The notes under the pieces: generated by a model
Database searches by the model: none
What the model was told of the DNA's origin: nothing
The model's input: the letters and a program-made list of their open reading frames with translations, nothing else
Shown here: piece by piece, positions 27,973 to 55,432 of the stretch
How the letters are laid out: the number at the start of each line of letters is the position of its first letter
How positions within the stretch are numbered: the first letter of the stretch is position 1
Program-made: the position numbers and the translations under genes
NCBI GenBank assembly: GCA_016875395.1
Contig: VGRF01000019.1
Span: forward strand, 1-64,000
Direction of reading: 5' to 3'
DNA: 64,000 nt
Source of the DNA: Deltaproteobacteria bacterium
Lineage (GTDB): Bacteria > Myxococcota_A > UBA9160 > UBA6930

Positions 27973-28032
27973 GGGGACATTCCGAAAGCAAGTAAAGAAA
28001 CGCTCTGCTTTACTTTCTTGCGGAACGTCCCC
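27973..28032. repeat. Long imperfect palindrome between aroA and exbD
   Basis: Two 25-base arms (27973-27997 and 28008-28032) match at 22 of 25 positions around a 10-base loop. The core is AT-richer (AAGTAAAG, CTTTACTT) than the neighbourhood. The arms begin GGGGACATTCCG and end GAACGTCCCC. It sits between convergent genes, so it may act as a two-way terminator, but the form resembles a REP/MITE-type element of the type moved by IS200/Y1 transposases. Confidence 0.7.
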
Positions 28033-28058: not shown

Positions 28059-28490
28059 CTACTCGCCCCCGCCCTTCACCTTGATGGTCGCGAGCGCGAA
28101 GCCTTCGGCGCCGGCGATCTGGGCTTGGTCGAGCACGAACACGGCCTCGCCGTAGACGATCTCCTTGTCGCCGCGCAGGATCACGATCTTGTCCGTCGCC
28201 ACTTCGAGCGCGGCCTTGATCTTGTCTTGCAGCGCGTCGCGGGCGACTACGTCGCCGTCGACTTGAATCGTGCCGTCGGTCGAGATCGTGACGTTCACGG
28301 CCTTCGGCGGCGTCTTGCCTGCCTCCTGGGCCGAAGGCAGATCGACCTTCTTGCCCGTGTTCGCGATCACCGACGACGTGACCATGAAGATGATCAGCAG
28401 CACGAGGAACACGTCGGTCAGCGGCGTGATGTTGATCTCGGCGACGATTCCGCCGCCGCTCTCGTCATCGCCCGGAAGCTGAACCGCCAT
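28059..28490 (-). CDS. ExbD/TolR-type biopolymer transport protein
   Basis: 143 residues. The short N-terminal tail is followed by INITPLTDVFLVLLIIFMVTS, with the essential Asp (Asp26) at the head of the single membrane helix. A periplasmic domain (about 55-143) carries VAVTIS-like strands. It should form the proton channel with the ExbB-like protein encoded 26 bp upstream (overlapping). The C-terminal end is near a palindrome shared with aroA. TolR and ExbD cannot be separated by sequence alone; context with a TonB-like gene favours ExbD-type. Confidence 0.92.
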   Translation of the reverse strand: MAVQLPGDDESGGGIVAEINITPLTDVFLVLLIIFMVTSSVIANTGKKVDLPSAQEAGKTPPKAVNVTISTDGTIQVDGDVVARDALQDKIKAALEVATDKIVILRGDKEIVYGEAVFVLDQAQIAGAEGFALATIKVKGGGE

Positions 28491-29124
28491 GCGGCGCCTC
28501 CCCCGCTTCGAGCGTGAGCAGCGCCTGCACGAAGCGCTCGGTCGCCCGCGCGCTCGTGCCCGTGATCGCCGCGATGCGCGTGTTCAAGTAGTTGTAGAGA
28601 AGCAGCGCGATGATCGCGATCAACAGGCCGACCGCCGTAGCGATCAGCGCCTCCGAGATGCCTTCCGACACCACCGCGAAGCCGGCGTCGCCGCTCTCCG
28701 CGATCGCACCGAAGGCGCCGATGATGCCGATCACCGTGCCGAGCAGGCCGATGTACGGCGCGAGCGAGCCGATCGTGCCGACGAACCAGATGCCGCGCTT
28801 GAGGTCGGTCAGGAACTCCTGGCGCGCCGTCGCGAGCACGGTTTGGATGTCCTCGACGGCGAAGTTGCCCCAGCGCAGGCCCTCGGCGAATACCGTTGAC
28901 ATCGGCGTCGTCGAGGCTTCACACAGCGCGCGGGCGGCGGGCAGGTCTCGTTTCAGGAGGTGATCGACGACTTTGCGCGTGACGTCGCGCGTCGCCTGCT
29001 CCATCCCGCGAAACTTCCAGAGCCGCTCGAAGCTGATCGAGAACACGATCACTGACAGGATTCCGAGCGGGTACGTCACGTACCAGCCCAGCTGGAGCAG
29101 ATGCAAGAGCTCGGATGCGCTCAT
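28465..29124 (-). CDS. ExbB/TolQ/MotA-type proton channel
   Basis: 219 residues. Three hydrophobic segments: about 13-32 (YVTYPLGILSVIVFSISFE), 107-130 (APYIGLLGTVIGIIGAFGAI) and 150-175. The middle block LLGTVIGIIGAF is the signature of the MotA/TolQ/ExbB channel family. The ATG at 29124 has AGGAGTT upstream. Its 3' end overlaps exbD by 26 bp, so they are coupled. The partner TonB-like gene is divergent, 186 bp away. Confidence 0.93.
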   Translation of the reverse strand: MSASELLHLLQLGWYVTYPLGILSVIVFSISFERLWKFRGMEQATRDVTRKVVDHLLKRDLPAARALCEASTTPMSTVFAEGLRWGNFAVEDIQTVLATARQEFLTDLKRGIWFVGTIGSLAPYIGLLGTVIGIIGAFGAIAESGDAGFAVVSEGISEALIATAVGLLIAIIALLLYNYLNTRIAAITGTSARATERFVQALLTLEAGEAPHGGSASGR

Positions 29125-29191
29125 GCGGGACGTAACTCCTTGCTTCCAAGAACGTTGAAGGCGCGCAGTGGGTAACCGATGAGGCGTTTCG

Positions 29192-29220
29192 TTGACACCC
29201 CTGGAGGGCTCTCTTAGGTT
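29192..29220 (+). promoter_or_regulatory. Sigma-70-type promoter for the TonB-like gene
   Basis: TTGACA (29192-29197) is separated by 17 bases from TAGGTT (29215-29220). The -35 is perfect and the -10 partial. It points toward the TonB-like ATG at 29311. No equivalent was seen toward exbB, which may use a weaker site on the other strand. Confidence 0.5.
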
Positions 29221-29310
29221 GGCCCGACCGCGACGAAAACCCCTGCAAACGCGAATAGTTGCGACGTAACCCGAAGCCCGAGACGGGCCATTCCGAGGCG
29301 CGCGGACGAA

Positions 29311-30447
29311 ATGAGCGAACTGGCGATGCAGAGCGGCTTCGTGGTGCGCAGGCGCCACGCGGGGAAGCACGCCAAGCGCCACGTCCGTAACAACTCCGCG
29401 CTGGCCGCCGTCGCCGCGCCGGCGGGCGCATTCCCCGGCACCGCGATGCCCGAGCCCGCGGGCGCGCGCGAGCGCCTCGTCTCCAGCGGGCTCTCGATCC
29501 TGATGCACGGCCTCGGCGTCGCCCTGATTGCGCTGACCGCCTATCTCGCGCCCGACGAGATCAAGGAATCGATCATCGAGATCACGCGCATCGAGGATCT
29601 CCCGAGCAACGACTCCTCCGTCTCCCCGAAGCCGCGCGCGATCGCGGAGAGCACGGGCCAGTTCGCGCCCGCGCCGATGGCGCTGCAGGCGCACGTGATC
29701 AACCCCACCCTGATTCAGGCGCGCGCTGCGAACATCGCGGCGGCGCAGGCGATCCAGGTCGAGGCGATCACGGCCGTGGCGGCGCCGAAGCAGATCGTCC
29801 ACACCACCGCGCCCACGGTGGAAGCCGCGCGCACCTATCAGTCGATCGCGACCGTCACCGCTGCGCAGGTCGACACCAGCGCCGCGACCGCGCAGATCTC
29901 CGGCAACGTCTCGATCAACGCGCCGCAGGGCGTGGTCGTGGGTCCGCGGCAAGTCACCACTACGGGCGCCACGGTCGGCATCGGGGGGCCCACCGCGCTC
30001 GGCACGGGCTCCTCGGTGCGGGAAGGCATCGCCTCTGGGCGCGACGTCGTGGGCCACAAGACGGGCGAGCGAGCTTCGATGAGCACCGTCTACGGCAGCG
30101 GCGGCGGACGCGGCTTCGGCGGCGACGGCACGGGCTCGGGCGGCGGCGCCCAGCAGAAGTGCTCTCAGCGCCCGGAAGTCCAGAGCTACCTCGCGCGCGT
30201 GAAACAGCGCGTGCTCGCGCGCTGGAAGGGCGCCGGCGTCGGCGAAGTCGAGCTGGAGTTCGCGATCGATGCCGCCGGCACGGCGACGGGGATCAAGTTC
30301 GTGAACGCTCCGGACCCCACGCTGGGCGAAGGCATTGCCGAGGCGATGCGCGTTGCGTCGCCATTCGAGCCGATGACGAGCGCAGTGAGCGGCTGCCTCG
30401 CCGGCGACACGCTCTACGCAACGTTCACGCTGGCCCGCGAACGCTGA
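29311..30447 (+). CDS. TonB-like energy transducer (AgmX/PglI-type C-terminus)
   Basis: 378 residues. A cytoplasmic basic tail is followed by one membrane helix (about 58-79, SGLSILMHGLGVALIALTAY). A long Ala/Val/Thr-rich stretch (about 95-255) with low-complexity repeats comes next. A C-terminal domain from about residue 281 begins with Cys and has VKQRVLARWKGAGVGEVELEFAI and a second Cys near the end, the pattern of the AgmX/PglI/TonB-C family. It should span the periplasm and pass energy from ExbB/ExbD to an outer-membrane or surface partner. The 1088-residue loop protein follows after 7 bp, so the two are co-transcribed. Confidence 0.83.
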   Translation: MSELAMQSGFVVRRRHAGKHAKRHVRNNSALAAVAAPAGAFPGTAMPEPAGARERLVSSGLSILMHGLGVALIALTAYLAPDEIKESIIEITRIEDLPSNDSSVSPKPRAIAESTGQFAPAPMALQAHVINPTLIQARAANIAAAQAIQVEAITAVAAPKQIVHTTAPTVEAARTYQSIATVTAAQVDTSAATAQISGNVSINAPQGVVVGPRQVTTTGATVGIGGPTALGTGSSVREGIASGRDVVGHKTGERASMSTVYGSGGGRGFGGDGTGSGGGAQQKCSQRPEVQSYLARVKQRVLARWKGAGVGEVELEFAIDAAGTATGIKFVNAPDPTLGEGIAEAMRVASPFEPMTSAVSGCLAGDTLYATFTLARER

Positions 30448-30454
30448 GCCGCTC

Positions 30455-33400
30455 GTGCGCTCGCCCTGGTTCGCACTTGCGTTCGCGCTGCACGCCGCTG
30501 CGGCGTACGCGCAGGCGCCGGCCGCTGCACCGTGCCAGGTCTTTCAGAACCAGTCGTTCGACCCCGAAACGGAGGAGATCCTCCGCAACGAGTCCGACAC
30601 GAATTGCGACGGCAAGTTCGACGAGGTGATCTCGTACGAGAAGAACGAGCCGAAGCGCGCCGAGAAAGACCAGAACCACGACGGGAAGTTCGACACGTTT
30701 ATCGACTACGCGCCCGGTGGAGTCGTGCTCCGCCAGGAGCGCGACGCGGACTACGACGGCAAGCTCGACCAGTGGGTCGAGTTCACCAATAACAAGCCCG
30801 CGCTGCAGAAGGACGACAGCAACGGCGACGGCAAGCCCGACTCGGTGAAGACGTTCGTGAACGGCGAGCCCACCCTGCTCGAGCAGGATCGCGACTTCGA
30901 CGGCAAGAACGACTCGCGCACGGAGTTCACGAGCGGCGTACCGAGCCTCGTGCTCGACGACGAGAACGAGGATGGCCGGCCCGAGATTCGCGCCGAGTAC
31001 GAGCCGAACGGCGACAAGAAACGCGAGGAGCAGGACACGAACGGCGACGGCCGTTTCGACGTGCTGATCGAGTACGCCGCTGGCAAGCAAACGCGCATCA
31101 GCGAGGACAACGGCGGGAAGCCCGGCTTCGACGTGATCACCGAGTACGGCGCGGACGGGAAGATCACGTCGCGGCGCGCGGACTCGGACGACGACGGCTC
31201 GTTCGACGTGGTCTCGACTTATCAGGCGGGGGTCGAGCGCAAGCAGACGCGCGACACCGACCAGGACGGCGTGTTCGACTCGCTCAGCGAGTTCGACGGC
31301 GAGGGGCGGCCCACGCGCGAGGACTTCGATCCCGACGACGACGGCCGCGTCGACCTGCGCCGCGAGTCGAAGGACGGCGCGAAGTACGCGGAGCTCGCCG
31401 ACACGAATGCGGACGGCAAGTTCGATCTGACGACGCGCTTCGCGGCGGGCAAGAAGCTCGCCACGGAAGCGGATACGAACCACGACGGAAAACCCGACGT
31501 GTTCGTGGACTTCGCGGAAGACGCCCGCAAGCAGCAGCGCGAGGACCAGAATCACGACGGCAAGATCGACGCGATCTTCGACTACGAGATCGACGGCGAG
31601 TCGCTCACGCTCGACCGCCGCGACAGCGATCACGACGGCAGCTTCGACACCGTCGCGAAGTATCAGGCGGGCACGCTGCTCACGAAGACCGTCGACCAAG
31701 ACGACGACGGCAAGCCCGAGCGAAGCGAGCACTACATCGCCGGGCAGCTCGTGCGGCTCGAGCTCGACGAGAACGACGACGGGCGCACCGAGGCGTGGAG
31801 TCACTACGGGCTCGAGGGCAAGCTCGCGAAGCAGGAGCAAGACACGAACGGAGACGGTCGACCGGATACCTGGGTCGAGCTGTTCCCGAACGGCGCGATC
31901 GCGCGCGTGCTCCAGGATCGCGACTTCGACGGCAAGCCCGAGACGTGGCGCACGCAGGACGAGTCCGGCGCGACGACGCAGCTCGAAGAGGACAAGAACG
32001 CGGACGGCAAGCCCGATCGCGTGGTGAAGTTCGCGAACGGCGTGGCGGACTCGTTCGAGGAGGACACGACGTTCGACGGCAAGCCCGATGTCGCGGGGAG
32101 GCTCGCTGCCGATGGCAAGGTGCTCGAAGAGCGGCGCGTGACGGATGCCGGCGCGGTCAAAGTCTCGTTCGAGGGCGGACAGAAGGCCCGCGAGGAGCAG
32201 GACAAGAACGCGGACGGCAAGCCCGACGTGATCTCCACGTTCAAGAACGGCGCGCTCGCGCTGCAGGAGCAAGATGAAGACGCCGACGGCGTGATCGACA
32301 CGCGCCTCGCGTTCGAAGGCGGGAAGCGCGTGCGCCAAGAGCGCGACACGAATGGCGACGACCAGCTCGACGCGACGACGTACTACGACGCGAACGAACA
32401 GCCGCTGCGCGAAGAGCTCGACACGAACGCGGACGGCAAGGTCGACGTGCGGCGCTTCTACGAGGCCGGCGCGATCGCGCGCGAAGAGCAAGACGCGGAC
32501 AAGAACGGCAGCTTCGAGCTCACCACGTTCCTCGCGAGCGGCGCGCCGCAGCGCTCCGAGGCCGACGCGAACGGCGACGGCAAGCCCGACATCTTCGTCA
32601 CGTATGCGGGCGGCAAGCGCGCGGAGCAGCGCGAGGACACGAGCGGCGACGGCACGATCGATGCGGTGACGACGTTCGGCGCCGACGACAAGCCCGCGCA
32701 GATCGCCGAAGACACGGACGCGGACGGCCGGCTCGAGACCACGAGCTACTTCGTCGCCGGCGAGCTCGCGCGCACCGAGAAGGACCGCAACGGCGACGGG
32801 AAGCCCGACGTGCGCGTCGCTTATCAGGGCGGGAAGCCGAGCCTCACCGAGCAGGACGACGACTACAACGGCAGCTTCGAGAAGCGCGTCGCGTCGTCGA
32901 TAAAGGGCGAGCAAGAGCAGAGCGAGGACCGCAACGGCGACGGACAGCCCGATCTGCGCGTCGTGTTCGACGCCAAGGGCACGATTCTCAGGCAGGAAGA
33001 GGACCGCAACTTCGACGGGAAGCCCGACGTCGTCTCCGAGTTCTCGGGCGGCGTGCTGCGCCTCGTGCGCGAGGACTCGAAGGGCCGCGGCTGCTTCGAC
33101 GTGGAGCAGCGTCTCGCGAGCGACGGCAAGACGGTGGAGGAGCAGGCGATCGACGAGAACGGCGACTGCAAGCTCGACCTGTGGTCGCACTTCGAGAACG
33201 GCGCGCCGGTGTGGCAGGCGCAGGATCAGCGCGGCGGCGGGTTCGCGACCGTGCTCACACGCTTCGACGCGAGCGGCGCGCCCACCGTGCAAGAGCTCGT
33301 GAGCGAGGGCAAGCGCGCGCCCGACACGAAGATCTTCCTCGTGAACGGCGCGGTCGACGCGCAGTGCCTCGACAGCGACGGCAACCGCACGCTCGACGTG

Positions 33401-33721
33401 CGCTACCGCATCGCCGGCGGCGCGGTCGCCGAGGGCCTCGTCGACACGAACCGCGACGGCAAAGCGAACGCGCGCCAGATCTGGAGCGGCGGCGCCATCG
33501 CCCACGTCGAGGTCGACACGAACGGCGACGGGCGCGCCGACGTCGTGCAGTACTTCTCAGGGCAGAACGTGATTCGCCAGTGCGAGGACGCGCAGTTCGA
33601 CGGCTCGGTCGACCAGTGCTTCGAGGGCCAGAAGGTCGTGCCGGTCTCCGGCGTGAAGGACCTGAGCCGCGCACTCGGCTCGCTCAACTGCGGCGGCTTC
33701 GACGCGTTCTGGCGCCGCTAG
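30455..33721 (+). CDS. Giant exported protein with about 42 D-x-D/N-x-D-G calcium-loop-like repeats
   Basis: 1088 residues from a GTG at 30455. A signal peptide (ALAFALHAAAAYAQA) is followed by tandem units with a period of about 24-25 residues. Each has a loop such as DTNCDGKFD, DQNHDGKFD or DRDFDGKPE and a beta-like Tyr/Phe-x-x-G stretch after it. The loops match the D-x-D/N-x-D-G-x-x-D core of EF-hand, dockerin and thrombospondin type 3 calcium sites. The YxxG spacing also recalls MORN/YwqK-type repeats. Several loops near residues 895-1050 are degenerate and carry Cys. It is co-transcribed with the TonB-like gene. Its role is unknown; calcium binding at the cell surface is an inference. 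Confidence 0.8.
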   Translation: MRSPWFALAFALHAAAAYAQAPAAAPCQVFQNQSFDPETEEILRNESDTNCDGKFDEVISYEKNEPKRAEKDQNHDGKFDTFIDYAPGGVVLRQERDADYDGKLDQWVEFTNNKPALQKDDSNGDGKPDSVKTFVNGEPTLLEQDRDFDGKNDSRTEFTSGVPSLVLDDENEDGRPEIRAEYEPNGDKKREEQDTNGDGRFDVLIEYAAGKQTRISEDNGGKPGFDVITEYGADGKITSRRADSDDDGSFDVVSTYQAGVERKQTRDTDQDGVFDSLSEFDGEGRPTREDFDPDDDGRVDLRRESKDGAKYAELADTNADGKFDLTTRFAAGKKLATEADTNHDGKPDVFVDFAEDARKQQREDQNHDGKIDAIFDYEIDGESLTLDRRDSDHDGSFDTVAKYQAGTLLTKTVDQDDDGKPERSEHYIAGQLVRLELDENDDGRTEAWSHYGLEGKLAKQEQDTNGDGRPDTWVELFPNGAIARVLQDRDFDGKPETWRTQDESGATTQLEEDKNADGKPDRVVKFANGVADSFEEDTTFDGKPDVAGRLAADGKVLEERRVTDAGAVKVSFEGGQKAREEQDKNADGKPDVISTFKNGALALQEQDEDADGVIDTRLAFEGGKRVRQERDTNGDDQLDATTYYDANEQPLREELDTNADGKVDVRRFYEAGAIAREEQDADKNGSFELTTFLASGAPQRSEADANGDGKPDIFVTYAGGKRAEQREDTSGDGTIDAVTTFGADDKPAQIAEDTDADGRLETTSYFVAGELARTEKDRNGDGKPDVRVAYQGGKPSLTEQDDDYNGSFEKRVASSIKGEQEQSEDRNGDGQPDLRVVFDAKGTILRQEEDRNFDGKPDVVSEFSGGVLRLVREDSKGRGCFDVEQRLASDGKTVEEQAIDENGDCKLDLWSHFENGAPVWQAQDQRGGGFATVLTRFDASGAPTVQELVSEGKRAPDTKIFLVNGAVDAQCLDSDGNRTLDVRYRIAGGAVAEGLVDTNRDGKANARQIWSGGAIAHVEVDTNGDGRADVVQYFSGQNVIRQCEDAQFDGSVDQCFEGQKVVPVSGVKDLSRALGSLNCGGFDAFWRR
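30596..33613 (+). repeat. Tandem 72-75 bp coding repeat (about 42 units)
   Basis: Residues 48-1053 of the giant protein are made of units of 24-25 residues. At DNA level the words GACGGCAAG and CCCGAC recur at the same phase in most units. The best-kept units are 12-21 (31.4-32.1 kb); the last seven are degenerate. Confidence 0.75.
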
Positions 33722-33855: not shown

Positions 33856-34230
33856 ATGCGCGCTGCGCTCCTGACCACAGCCGTCGTGCTTCTCGTGTTC
33901 GTCGCCTGGGCGAATCTGCGCGGATCTCTCGGGTCTGAGCGACGACCCGACCTCGCGACGTCGCAGTCCTCGGGCGAGCTGCCCGATGTCGCTGCGCCCC
34001 CGACGCGCGCCGCGGAGATTGCGTCACCGAGCCCCGAGGCCGTCTACGAACCGGCCACGGGCGCGCCGCCCGCCCGTCAGCACGTCGTCGCTGCGGGCGA
34101 GACGCTCGCCACGATCTCGCTCCGTCATTACGGCGACGAGACGCACGCGAACGCCATCTACGAAGCCAACCGCGACCAGATTCGCGATCCCGCGCAGCTG
34201 CACGAGGGGCAGACGCTGAGCCTGCCGTGA
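33856..34230 (+). CDS. Small LysM-domain membrane protein
   Basis: About 124 residues. An N-terminal hydrophobic helix (ALLTTAVVLLVFVAW) is followed by a Pro/Ala linker. A LysM domain (QHVVAAGETLATISLRHYGDETHANAIYEANRDQIRDPAQLHEGQTLSL, positions about 75-124) follows. LysM binds peptidoglycan. The ATG at 33856 is preceded by GGTTCCGTTG and lacks a clear ribosome-binding site. It follows the giant loop protein after 134 bp on the same strand and precedes the sigma-54 activator. A cell-wall role is likely. Confidence 0.85.
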   Translation: MRAALLTTAVVLLVFVAWANLRGSLGSERRPDLATSQSSGELPDVAAPPTRAAEIASPSPEAVYEPATGAPPARQHVVAAGETLATISLRHYGDETHANAIYEANRDQIRDPAQLHEGQTLSLP

Positions 34231-34404: not shown

Positions 34405-35631
34405 GTGCGACCGCAGTCGATTTTGTGGATCGGAGATCCCGCGGGCTTGCAGGCCAACCCTGCAGCCCAGTGCCCCGAGCTCGACCTCGTCTGGGCGCGC
34501 GACGCCAGCGACGCGCTCGCGCTGCCCCTCACGAGCTTCGCGTGCGTCGTGATGGATGCGGACGTGGGCAGCGACGCGCTCGCGGAACGGCTGCGCAGCC
34601 TCGGCGCGGCCGACGTGCTGCTCACGCACGATCCCGCGCGCTACCCGCGCCTCGCGGACCTCGCGCGCCGCCCTGCGAAGCCAGCGCTGCGCGGCGTCGT
34701 CGCCGCCAGCGAGGCGATGCAGCGCGTGCTCGCGCTCGTCGGACGCGCACAAGCCACGCACGCCACGGTCCTGCTCACCGGCGAGACCGGCACCGGCAAG
34801 GAGGTGATGGCGCGCGCGATTCACGCCGGCAGCGCGCGTTCGCGCGCCCCGTTCGTGGCGCTCAACTGCGCAGCGTTTCCGGAAGGGCTGCTCGAGAGCG
34901 AGCTGTTCGGCCATGCGCGAGGCGCGTTCACGGGGGCCGACCGCGCCAAGGAAGGGCTGTTCGTCGCGGCGGACGGCGGGACGCTCTTCCTCGACGAAGT
35001 GGGCGAGACCTCCCTGCCCTTCCAAGTGAAGTTGTTACGGGCGCTGCAGGAGCGCGAGGTTCGGCCGGTGGGCGGAACGCGCACGCAGCGCGTCGACGTG
35101 CGCGTGATCGCGGCGACGAACCGCGAGCTGCGGCGCGACATCGATCGCGGCGCGTTTCGCGCAGACCTGTACTACCGCCTCGCCGTGTTCCCGCTGCGCC
35201 TGCCGCCGCTGCGCGAGCGCCGCGCCGACATCGCGCCGCTCGCCACGCACTTCCTCGCCTCGCACGGCGAGCGCGAAGGCAAACGCGGCTGCGCGCTCGC
35301 AACGGACGCGCTCGCGCTGCTCGCCGCGCACACCTGGCCCGGCAACGTGCGCGAGCTCGAGAACGAGATGCTGCGCGCGCTCGCGCTCTCGGAGCCAGGC
35401 GAGGAGATTCCCGCGGCGCGGCTGTCGCAGCGCCTCGGCGAGCACGTCGATCTCGCGGAGGCGCTGCCCGCCGGCGGCGAGCCGCTGCGCGTCACTCTCG
35501 CGCGCGTGGAGACGCTCGTACTCCAGCGCAGCCTCGCGCGGCACAGCGGCCGCCGCGCGGAGACCGCGCGCGCGCTCGGCATCACGCGCGAAGGGCTGCA
35601 CAAGAAGCTGCGGCGACTCGGCATCGCCTGA
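34405..35631 (+). CDS. Sigma-54-dependent transcriptional activator
   Basis: 408 residues. An N-terminal receiver-like segment (about 1-100; CVVMDADV near the place of the phospho-Asp) is followed by a complete AAA+ domain. It has Walker A GETGTGKE (126-133), the sigma-54 contact loop GAFTGA (173-178), Walker [12 protein letters not shown] and a sensor region RDLYYRL-like. A C-terminal Fis-type helix-turn-helix ([21 protein letters not shown]) ends the chain. GTG start with GAAGGAG. The promoter upstream looks sigma-54 type, suggesting self-activation. The target genes are unknown; the neighbouring envelope genes are candidates. Confidence 0.93.
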
Positions 35632-35748: not shown

Positions 35749-36510
35749 ATGGAAACGCGCACCCCCCTCCTCTCCGCCGCTCGCGCCGCAGGCATCGGCC
35801 TGCTGAGCGCGCTCCTCCTGCTCACGCCGGTGAACCTCGGCGCCGCGCCGCGCGATCACGTGATCGTGTGGATGCCGCCGGGCGGCACCGTCGGTGGCTA
35901 TCGCGTGCACGTCGGCCCGCAGCCATCGCTCTACGACCAGGTGCTCGACCTCGGCGTCGTGCCGATCGATCCCGACGGACTCGGCCGCGCCACGCTCACG
36001 CTCGACTCGTCGTTCGACTACTACGTGGCGCTGGTCGCGTACAACAGCGCCGGCGACTCGCCGAAGTCGAACGAGATCCGCGTCGCGAAGTCGATGTGCG
36101 ATCCCACGCAGTGCAGTGACAACGAGTCGTGCACCGCCGACGACTGCGGTCCGAACGGCTGCACCCACACTCCGGTTCCCGACGGCACTCACTGCAGCGC
36201 CGGCCCGAGCTCGGCAGGCATGTGCTCGGCTGGCCGCTGCCAGCCTGCGCAGTGCACGCAGGCCTCGCACTGCGACGACGGCAACGCGTGCAACGGCGCC
36301 GAGTCGTGCAGCGTGACGGGATCGTGCAGCGCCGGCACGCCACTCAGCTGCGGCGCGCCGAAGCAGTGCTCGATTCCGAGCTGCGATCCCGCGCGCGGCT
36401 GCATCGAGATCGCGCGCCCGGACGGCACGCTCTGCAACGACGGCCGCCGCAACACCACGGGCGACCGGTGCGTCGCCGGCGTGTGCCGCGGGAAGCGCAT
36501 CCGCCGCTGA
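35749..36510 (+). CDS. Secreted Cys-rich protein with fibronectin-III-like N-terminus
   Basis: 253 residues. A signal peptide (GLLSALLLLTPVNLGA) is followed by a beta-sandwich-like segment (VIVWMPPGGTVGGYRVHVG ... SFDYYVALVAYNSAGDS) resembling fibronectin type III. The C-terminal 140 residues have over 20 Cys in short spacings (CDPTQCSDNESC, HCDDGNACNGAESC), similar to disulfide-rich domains that many Myxococcota-type secreted proteins carry. It should be exported and heavily cross-linked. No enzymatic motif was found. Expressed after the sigma-54 activator on the same strand, 117 bp apart. Confidence 0.72.
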   Translation: METRTPLLSAARAAGIGLLSALLLLTPVNLGAAPRDHVIVWMPPGGTVGGYRVHVGPQPSLYDQVLDLGVVPIDPDGLGRATLTLDSSFDYYVALVAYNSAGDSPKSNEIRVAKSMCDPTQCSDNESCTADDCGPNGCTHTPVPDGTHCSAGPSSAGMCSAGRCQPAQCTQASHCDDGNACNGAESCSVTGSCSAGTPLSCGAPKQCSIPSCDPARGCIEIARPDGTLCNDGRRNTTGDRCVAGVCRGKRIRR

Positions 36511-53949: not shown

Positions 53950-54196
53950 GCGCCCACGGTAGGCCGCTCGCGAAGCGAGCAGCGAGCGGAGTCACGCGGA
54001 AGCGTAACGTGCGTTCCGCGGCGACGGAAGCGCGCGACACAATTGCGTGTCGGCTGCGCGCGGCAACGCGCGTGCAGGACCCCGCGCGATCTCCACGCGC
54101 GGCCAAAGCTCCGGCGGCGCGCCGCCTCCGGGCGCACGCTTCTTGCACGAACGTGCCCGGGGGCGTGCGTCTCGCACGCCGGATGCGGGGGCATTC

Positions 54197-55432
54197 ATGC
54201 GAACTACGAGCGTGCTGATCTCCGTCGCGCTGGTCGGATTCGGCTGTGCGCAGAGCACACCCTGGAAGGACTACCGCGAGACGCCCGTGATCGAACGCGG
54301 CGCGTGCGCGACGGTGATCATGCCCGGCGAGCAGGCGCCGCTCGGCAGCGAGCCGAACTGCCCGAATGGCTACTCCTCGCTCGGCGGCGCCACGGTCTAC
54401 GACGAGAAGGACTACCAGCAACCGGGCTCGGGCAAGCGCGCGCTGAAGCGCGTGGCGCGCGTGCCCGCCGCCGTGCTCGGTGCGCCCGTCGCCGCCGGGG
54501 CTGCGGCTGCGAAGTCTGCGCGCGGCGCCTCGCAGTCCAGCTCGAGCCGCTCGGGCGGCATCGATCCGGCGCAGAGCACGCAGGATCAAGTCGAGCGGAT
54601 GCGTCGCGAGATCCTCGAGCGCGAGCGCATGGGCCGCGGCCAGGCGCCGCCTGCTCACGCCGCTGGACCCGCCCCGAACCCTGCGCCGCAGCAGGTCGCG
54701 GCGCGAGCGCCGCGCGCGGGCGGTGCGAGCATCGCGGACGAGCTCGCGGCGCTGCGCGGGGCGCGCGCATCCGTAACGACTCCAGCGCGCGACGGTGCGC
54801 CGGCCGAGCCCCTGAGGAGCGCCGCTGCGGTCTCGGCGCCGCCGATCGCGGACCGCGTCGCCGATCGCGATGGGGACGGCGCGCCGGATCACTGGATCTA
54901 TCGCGATGCGCAGGGTCGGCCCGAGCGCGAGCAGTACGACGAGAACGGCGACGCACGGCAGGATCGCACGGCGTGGCTCGACGCCGTGACGGGCCGCGAG
55001 ACGCGCGTCGAGGAAGACGCGAACCTCGACGGCCGCGTCGACACCTGGGTCGAGTACGTGGACGGCGCGCCCGCGCGCCAACGGCGCGACACGAATCACG
55101 ACGGCAGCGCGGACCAGTGGAGTTATTACGACCGCACGGGCAAGCTCGCGCGCCAGGAGCAGGACCTCGACGGCGACGGCTACCGCAACCGCGAGACGCT
55201 CTATCGCGAGGGCAAGCTCGCGAAGCAGCGCGACGACCGAGACGGCGACGGGCGCTTCGACCTCGTCACGACCTACGATGCCGAGGAGCGCATCGCGCGC
55301 CGCGACGAGGATCGCGACGGCGACGGCAAGATCGACGCGCGCTCCATCTACGAGAAGGGCAAACTCGTGAGGCGCGAAGTCGTGACGGAAGCGCTCGACG
55401 ACGGCGACGACCTCTCGCAGACGGAGTGGTGA
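54197..55432 (+). CDS. Lipoprotein with C-terminal D-x-D/N-x-D-G loops (paralogue of the 42-loop protein)
   Basis: 411 residues. The lipobox (ALVGFGC) gives a lipid-anchored mature chain. An N-terminal Cys-containing segment is followed by an Ala/Ser/Arg-rich linker (about 75-210). The C-terminal 190 residues hold seven loops: DRDGDGAPD, DENGDARQD, DANLDGRVD, DTNHDGSAD, DLDGDGYRN, DRDGDGRFD and DRDGDGKID. These are the same repeat type as in the 1088-residue protein at 30455. The CAP gene follows after 22 bp. Calcium binding is an inference. Confidence 0.8.
   Translation: MRTTSVLISVALVGFGCAQSTPWKDYRETPVIERGACATVIMPGEQAPLGSEPNCPNGYSSLGGATVYDEKDYQQPGSGKRALKRVARVPAAVLGAPVAAGAAAAKSARGASQSSSSRSGGIDPAQSTQDQVERMRREILERERMGRGQAPPAHAAGPAPNPAPQQVAARAPRAGGASIADELAALRGARASVTTPARDGAPAEPLRSAAAVSAPPIADRVADRDGDGAPDHWIYRDAQGRPEREQYDENGDARQDRTAWLDAVTGRETRVEEDANLDGRVDTWVEYVDGAPARQRRDTNHDGSADQWSYYDRTGKLARQEQDLDGDGYRNRETLYREGKLAKQRDDRDGDGRFDLVTTYDAEERIARRDEDRDGDGKIDARSIYEKGKLVRREVVTEALDDGDDLSQTEW

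Follow-up and report, generated by a model that had tools for sequence, protein, structure and literature searches.

Our data support that the genes for an ExbD-like and an ExbB-like stator subunit, a TonB/TolA-like transducer, and an exported protein of 42 loop repeats form a conserved and recurrently linked set. These genes lie in the window, the whole stretch of 64,000 nucleotides that was analyzed, which represents contig C19 of a genome of 4.51 Mb (96 contigs, 96% complete). We proposed, as a reading that we hold to be somewhat probable, that the set is a trans-envelope motor of the Ton/Tol type to which a dedicated partner, a calcium ribbon, has been added; the ribbon would link the transducer to outer-membrane parts.

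Organization of the Locus and Its Motor Genes

The earlier note had described exbD and exbB as divergent from a TonB-like gene that is closely followed by the loop gene, and both the coordinates and the strands were right. The exbD/tolR-like gene (28059..28490, minus strand, 143 aa; PF02472, 2.5e-28) and the exbB/tolQ-like gene (28465..29124, minus strand, 219 aa; PF01618, 4.7e-31) overlap by 26 bp. By direct reading, an intergenic region of 186 bp (29125..29310) separates exbB from the transducer gene (29311..30447, plus strand, 378 aa), and a gap of 7 bp lies between the transducer stop and the start of the loop gene (30455..33721, plus strand, 1088 aa). Both stator proteins scored above the Pfam cut-offs, as a MotA/TolQ/ExbB channel subunit and an ExbD/TolR subunit; their best NCBIfam matches were tolQ for ExbB (2.5e-32) and tolR for ExbD (7.1e-25), each under the cut-off of its model. 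The transmembrane segment of ExbD, 'PLTDVFLVLLIIFM', contains the Asp expected of ExbD/TolR, and this residue was conserved in every homolog with a captured motif region (TPLTD...LIIFM).

The transducer matched none of the Pfam or NCBIfam models, and its assignment came from alignment A2 (20 sequences), AlphaFold2, and Foldseek. The protein has a basic cytoplasmic N-terminus, a single transmembrane helix, a long low-complexity linker, and a TolA/TonB-type C-terminal domain. Its transmembrane segment carries an S-x3-H motif (S/A-x3-H in alignment A2), which we take to be that of TonB and TolA, and in which His66 was invariant; thus, both the membrane Asp of the stator and the transmembrane His of the transducer were present. 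Cys284 and Cys362 were also invariant in this alignment. AlphaFold2 placed the transmembrane helix at residues 52-79 and the C-terminal domain at 288-374 (pLDDT about 90 or higher for the most part), and predicted a confident alpha-beta-beta-alpha-beta order for the domain. The nearest solved structures to the predicted domain were the C-terminal domains of TolA (2.2e-4, TMt 0.80) and TonB (TMt 0.73 for that of Helicobacter pylori), so the predicted structure has the TolA/TonB fold without a Pfam sequence match. In the mechanism that we proposed, ExbB-ExbD would sit in the inner membrane as a stator powered by protons and would drive the transducer, the C-terminal domain of which would reach across the periplasm. 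Elsewhere in the same genome we found two other motor clusters, one of the TolQ-TolR-TolA-TolB type that includes a TPR protein (L210) and one TonB cluster of the DUF3450 type (L211), which makes the set of the window a third motor.

A LysM protein gene (33856..34230, plus strand; PF01476, 5.4e-7) and a gene for a sigma-54 activator with a Fis-type HTH (34405..35631, plus strand; PF00158, 7.8e-69) follow the loop gene, as the earlier note had observed. Both genes are real by their Pfam matches, but of 20 sampled loci of relatives, only 2 had a detected LysM gene next to the set, and roughly half had a sigma-54 activator downstream, at a variable distance; we therefore rejected both as members. 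Several other features of the region were observed. An imperfect palindrome (GGGGACATTCCGAAAGCAAGTAAAG facing a near copy; 27973-28032) with a fold z-score of -5.3 lies between aroA and exbD and appears REP-like. In many relatives, the aroA-exbD gap holds three ABC genes, and a GldA-like ATPase, a GldF-like permease, and an ABC_transp_aux (GldG-like) protein were encoded near exbD in about 13 of the 20 loci (e.g., L067, 2719-5903), across most sampled families of the order; they are absent from that place in the window. The gene between those for the sigma-54 activator and typA (35749-36510, plus strand) encodes an exported-looking protein that weakly matches fibronectin type III and is rich in Cys in its second half. 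Farther along, a second loop-repeat protein (54194-55432, plus strand) has about seven repeats of the same type and is a putative lipoprotein (lipobox VGFGC).

Conservation of the Linkage and the ExbB Lineages

The earlier note had suggested a search for the neighborhood in other genomes, and we found the four genes kept together in the sampled relatives, which presumably belong to the class UBA9160. Matches to the loop family were found in 58 of the 61 genomes searched and matches to the transducer in 53 of the 61. By comparison of coordinates, the transducer gene and a full loop gene were adjacent on one contig in 49 of these 53; the other four comprised three cases at contig ends and one weak match. 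The divergent arrangement of exbD-exbB and tonB-loop recurred throughout 20 larger stretches from relatives, in which genes were called with a composition-based caller that recovers known genes. The exceptions were a short contig without visible exbB and exbD (L084) and a tonB detected by the gene caller and not by tblastn (L078). At the scale of the phylum, in searches with P0002 and with the protein of L131, we saw the long loop protein (E 1e-30) only within its own class, in 47 of 284 genomes. Two other families of the phylum have short loop proteins (G362 and G568) that were not beside ExbB, which indicated that not every protein with this repeat is linked to a motor. The relatives are mostly incomplete metagenome-assembled genomes, so absences are uncertain and every argument from absence is limited.

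Within the class, one family (L105, L109, L204, L206, and L251) showed a rearranged form in which tonB-loop-loop2 faces exbD-exbB. In this family, the region upstream of exbB encodes a VWA protein, an OmpA lipoprotein of the YiaD type, and an M28 peptidase, and in L204 and L251 the VWA gene shares 4 bp with exbB. The loop2 protein has 8-9 repeats of the loop-protein type, a glycine zipper, and a coiled-coil-like stretch, and it is a lipoprotein by the lipobox of those copies with a complete start. In the genome of the window, loop2 lipoprotein, VWA, and OmpA-type genes are clustered on another contig (C2, about 93297-96770; L214, 2298-5771), unlinked to the locus of the window, and a loop2-VWA pair was conserved in many relatives. 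A further variant was seen in L205 (1505-4376; genome G475), where tonB-loop-loop2 is followed by a 649-aa protein of unknown type and a very weak ExbB-like gene in place of exbD-exbB.

The set was also found in Desulfobacterota, where 23 of 297 genomes had a match. In 20 of the 23, the loop gene had an exbB no more than about 3 kb away; the remaining three were a contig end, a short flank with no exbB, and a deletion remnant. The usual order there is loop-exbB-exbD-tonB (L131, L111, and others), and one genome has loop-loop2-tonB-exbB-exbD (L198). The loop proteins of this phylum are shorter, with about 6-21 loops, and their similarity to the long protein could partly reflect convergence of D-rich repeats. 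In two genomes (G062 and G358), the periplasmic part of ExbD is joined in frame to loop repeats (L143, 678-1508, and L153, 294-1100); this apparent fusion, which is probably the remnant of a deletion that removed exbB in one copy, was discounted as evidence.

The tree of 63 ExbB/TolQ proteins, some of them long-branched, placed the loop-linked ExbBs in three supported groups: the lineage of the window (19 rows, support 100/99), the rearranged family of its class (4 rows, 100/100), and Desulfobacterota (18 rows and one other, 100/98). A branch with support of 100/95 splits the group of the window from the other two. The ExbB of L198 was left out of the tree and resembles that of the window (189 bits). 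One group pairs homologous tonB and loop genes with different exbB and exbD genes. Since the loop-linked ExbBs fall in three separate lineages, the simplest reading would be that stators were swapped or recruited more than once while the loop protein and the transducer stayed linked.

These results bear on whether the four genes are mere neighbors, or co-regulated genes without a joint function, which we consider highly improbable. Across the order of the window, the housekeeping genes aroA, serA, and purA likewise remain near the locus, so that part of the linkage there is general synteny; however, the four genes stay together after rearrangement, and linkage kept across gene orders, genomic contexts, and ExbB lineages counts against mere neighborhood. 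Loss of the genes was informative as well. In genus g35, the loop protein was absent from six genomes, and in the three of these tested the transducer and a strong VWA match were also absent; this co-loss supports a single functional set. Two other genomes (G002 and G005) kept the loop protein and the transducer without a strong VWA match, which indicated that the VWA protein is not obligatory.

The Loop Protein and Its Proposed Role

By inspection, the loop protein has a signal peptide at about residues 1-20, repeats up to about residue 1062, and a conserved C-terminal CGxFxxFW. The count of 42 loops in an exported protein given in the earlier note was borne out: 37 strict loops of the DxDxDGxx[DE] type and 5 degenerate ones are spaced at 23-26 residues, compared with a mean of 4.15 such loops in shuffled sequence. 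The description of these repeats as EF-hand/TSP3-like held for the nine-residue loop motif but not for the fold. AlphaFold2 (18 sequences, mean pLDDT 87, pTM 0.37) predicted a single unbroken meander of about 84 strands in hairpins, each unit consisting of a strand, a two-residue turn, a strand, and a nine-residue loop; because the pTM is low, the overall curvature of the model is not fixed. The protein matched no Pfam EF-hand or TSP3 model at E 0.01, and with these hairpins predicted as all-beta, we rejected an EF-hand or TSP3 identity. Sequence searches of the PDB gave only weak lanmodulin-type loop matches, which we took as motif similarity, and PHROGs gave no match.

Comparison of 19 orthologs from the order of the window showed that 50 of the 71 invariant columns fall at loop positions 1, 5, 6, or 9. 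Whole-repeat gains or losses were absent from 13 of the 19 orthologs, and the remainder differed by multiples of about 24 residues. Orthologous repeats were no more similar than the best other repeats (0.437 vs. 0.441), so that positional orthology of single repeats is indecisive and the near-constancy of repeat number rests on indel counts. Together, the conserved ligand positions and the indel pattern suggest that both the metal-ligand positions and the length are constrained. From the loop motif, the protein would be expected to bind calcium.

We proposed that the partner of the transducer would be an exported ribbon of 42 beta-hairpins, with a loop that binds metal, probably calcium, closing each hairpin. 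The ribbon is most likely periplasmic and would join the transducer to outer-membrane parts, in the place that TolB-Pal holds in Tol-Pal. As a straight ribbon, 84 strands at about 4.8 Angstrom would extend to a calculated, not measured, length of about 40 nm; this is beyond the usual periplasm, and a ribbon inside the periplasm must therefore be shortened by coiling. Likely outer parts in some relatives would be the lipoprotein of 8-9 repeats, the YiaD-type OmpA lipoprotein, which should bind peptidoglycan, and the VWA protein; the separate location of the corresponding genes in the genome of the window counts against this proposal. We infer physical contact between the parts and transmission of force, as well as calcium binding and the periplasmic location, and we favored the ribbon as a force-bearing link to outer-membrane lipoproteins over an uptake helper or a surface structure. 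More tentatively, and with some doubt, the set might represent an undescribed class of trans-envelope machine, in which the motor would pull a calcium-stiffened ribbon of near-fixed length that spans the periplasm to repeat-bearing lipoproteins, with repeat number serving as a ruler.

An uptake role, in which ExbB-ExbD-TonB would be an ordinary Ton system and the ribbon would assist TonB-dependent uptake from the periplasm or the outer membrane (e.g., as a metal-binding store or a docking aid for a single receptor), was judged rather unlikely. The earlier note had remarked that TonB systems normally energize receptors. In Desulfobacterota, 11 of 22 loci have a TonB-dependent receptor next to the set, a context that suits a helper of uptake better than a machine like Tol; some of these loci also carry genes for DUF4198 and a tetrapyrrole methylase, which suggest uptake of metals or corrinoids. 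In the order of the window, no receptor was recognized at the 20 sampled loci. The genome of the window encodes 30 receptor plug domains, and some relatives have receptors without a DUF3450 match, two points in favor of an uptake role; yet the genome of the window also has its DUF3450-type TonB cluster. Moreover, three genomes (G026, G036, and G039) have the loop protein without a plug-domain match, and three g35 genomes have 7-8 plug matches without the loop protein, which indicated that presence of the loop protein does not track receptor number. In addition, TolA is as good a match to the C-terminal domain of the transducer as TonB, or a better one.

Still less probable, in our assessment, is that the ribbon crosses the outer membrane and belongs to an adhesin, a gliding structure, or some other surface apparatus that the motor moves or secretes. 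The closest curated family to the loop protein is Lsa25.6 of Leptospira (NCBIfam NF050087; 1.1e-34, under the cut-off), which has been reported as surface-localized (PMC7662565), and a Ton system is involved in the secretion of PopC in Myxococcus (PMC6434023). Against these points, only a Sec-type signal is visible, neither a surface anchor nor an outer-membrane secretion partner was seen at the locus, and the near-fixed repeat number is unlike that of many variable adhesins. The Gld-like ABC genes near exbD in most sampled families would likewise fit a surface apparatus, but they are missing from the equivalent place in the window, and to our knowledge bacteria that do not glide also have such ABC sets.

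Comparison with Known Systems

The suggestion that no system of this composition has been described agreed with our reading of the literature: among the open papers searched, none described a constant ribbon partner, and it was not mentioned in passages of a review of 5:2 rotary motors (PMC9389320). This suggests that the constant ribbon partner is an apparently new part added to motor families that are already known. The few partners of Ton/Tol-type motors known to us are TonB-dependent receptors, TolB-Pal, and gliding complexes, and a ribbon that accompanies several ExbB lineages, across two groups of bacteria, would broaden the presumed roles of these motors. The set comprises concrete, testable genes, and it would provide a functional setting for loop-repeat proteins that otherwise lack a name or are classed as adhesins.

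Among repeat proteins, the loop protein resembles Lsa25.6 in the kind of repeat, and a Desulfobacterales homolog also matched that model (3.5e-19). However, both scores were below the 150-bit cut-off of the model, which has 196 positions, and at 119.8 bits the loop protein of the window falls outside the family. Foldseek with the predicted ribbon gave local likeness to the hairpin meanders of Rhs/YD proteins, teneurin shells, and MORN-type (MORN/YwqK) repeats, with E down to 4e-21, whereas a global TM-score of about 0.1 against solved structures argues against a common overall shape with Rhs/YD or MORN proteins. We know of no DxDxDG loops as a feature of the MORN/YwqK and Rhs/YD families.

Among motors, the DUF3450-type TonB cluster (DUF3450, a long MotA/ExbB, ExbB, two ExbD, TonB, and TPR) is likewise a Ton-type motor with extra parts in the genome of the window, but it occupies a separate locus, has another ExbB lineage, and lacks a loop protein. 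The set shares with TonB-ExbB-ExbD and its receptors the motor, the S-x3-H motif in the transducer membrane segment, and, in Desulfobacterota, a receptor that is often adjacent; it differs in the order of the window, where the constant partner is a large repeat protein rather than a recognized receptor. The likeness to Tol-Pal extends to all three motor families, with TolQ and TolR as the best curated matches of ExbB and ExbD and TolA closest to the C-terminal domain of the transducer, and to an exported repeat protein encoded after the transducer, as TolB is after TolA. In contrast to the propeller of TolB, the partner in the window is a predicted beta-hairpin ribbon; neither a TolB propeller nor a Pal lipoprotein is encoded at the locus, and TolB belongs to the tolQ-tolR-tolA-tolB-type cluster that the genome has of its own at L210, whereas an OmpA lipoprotein accompanies the set in a related family.
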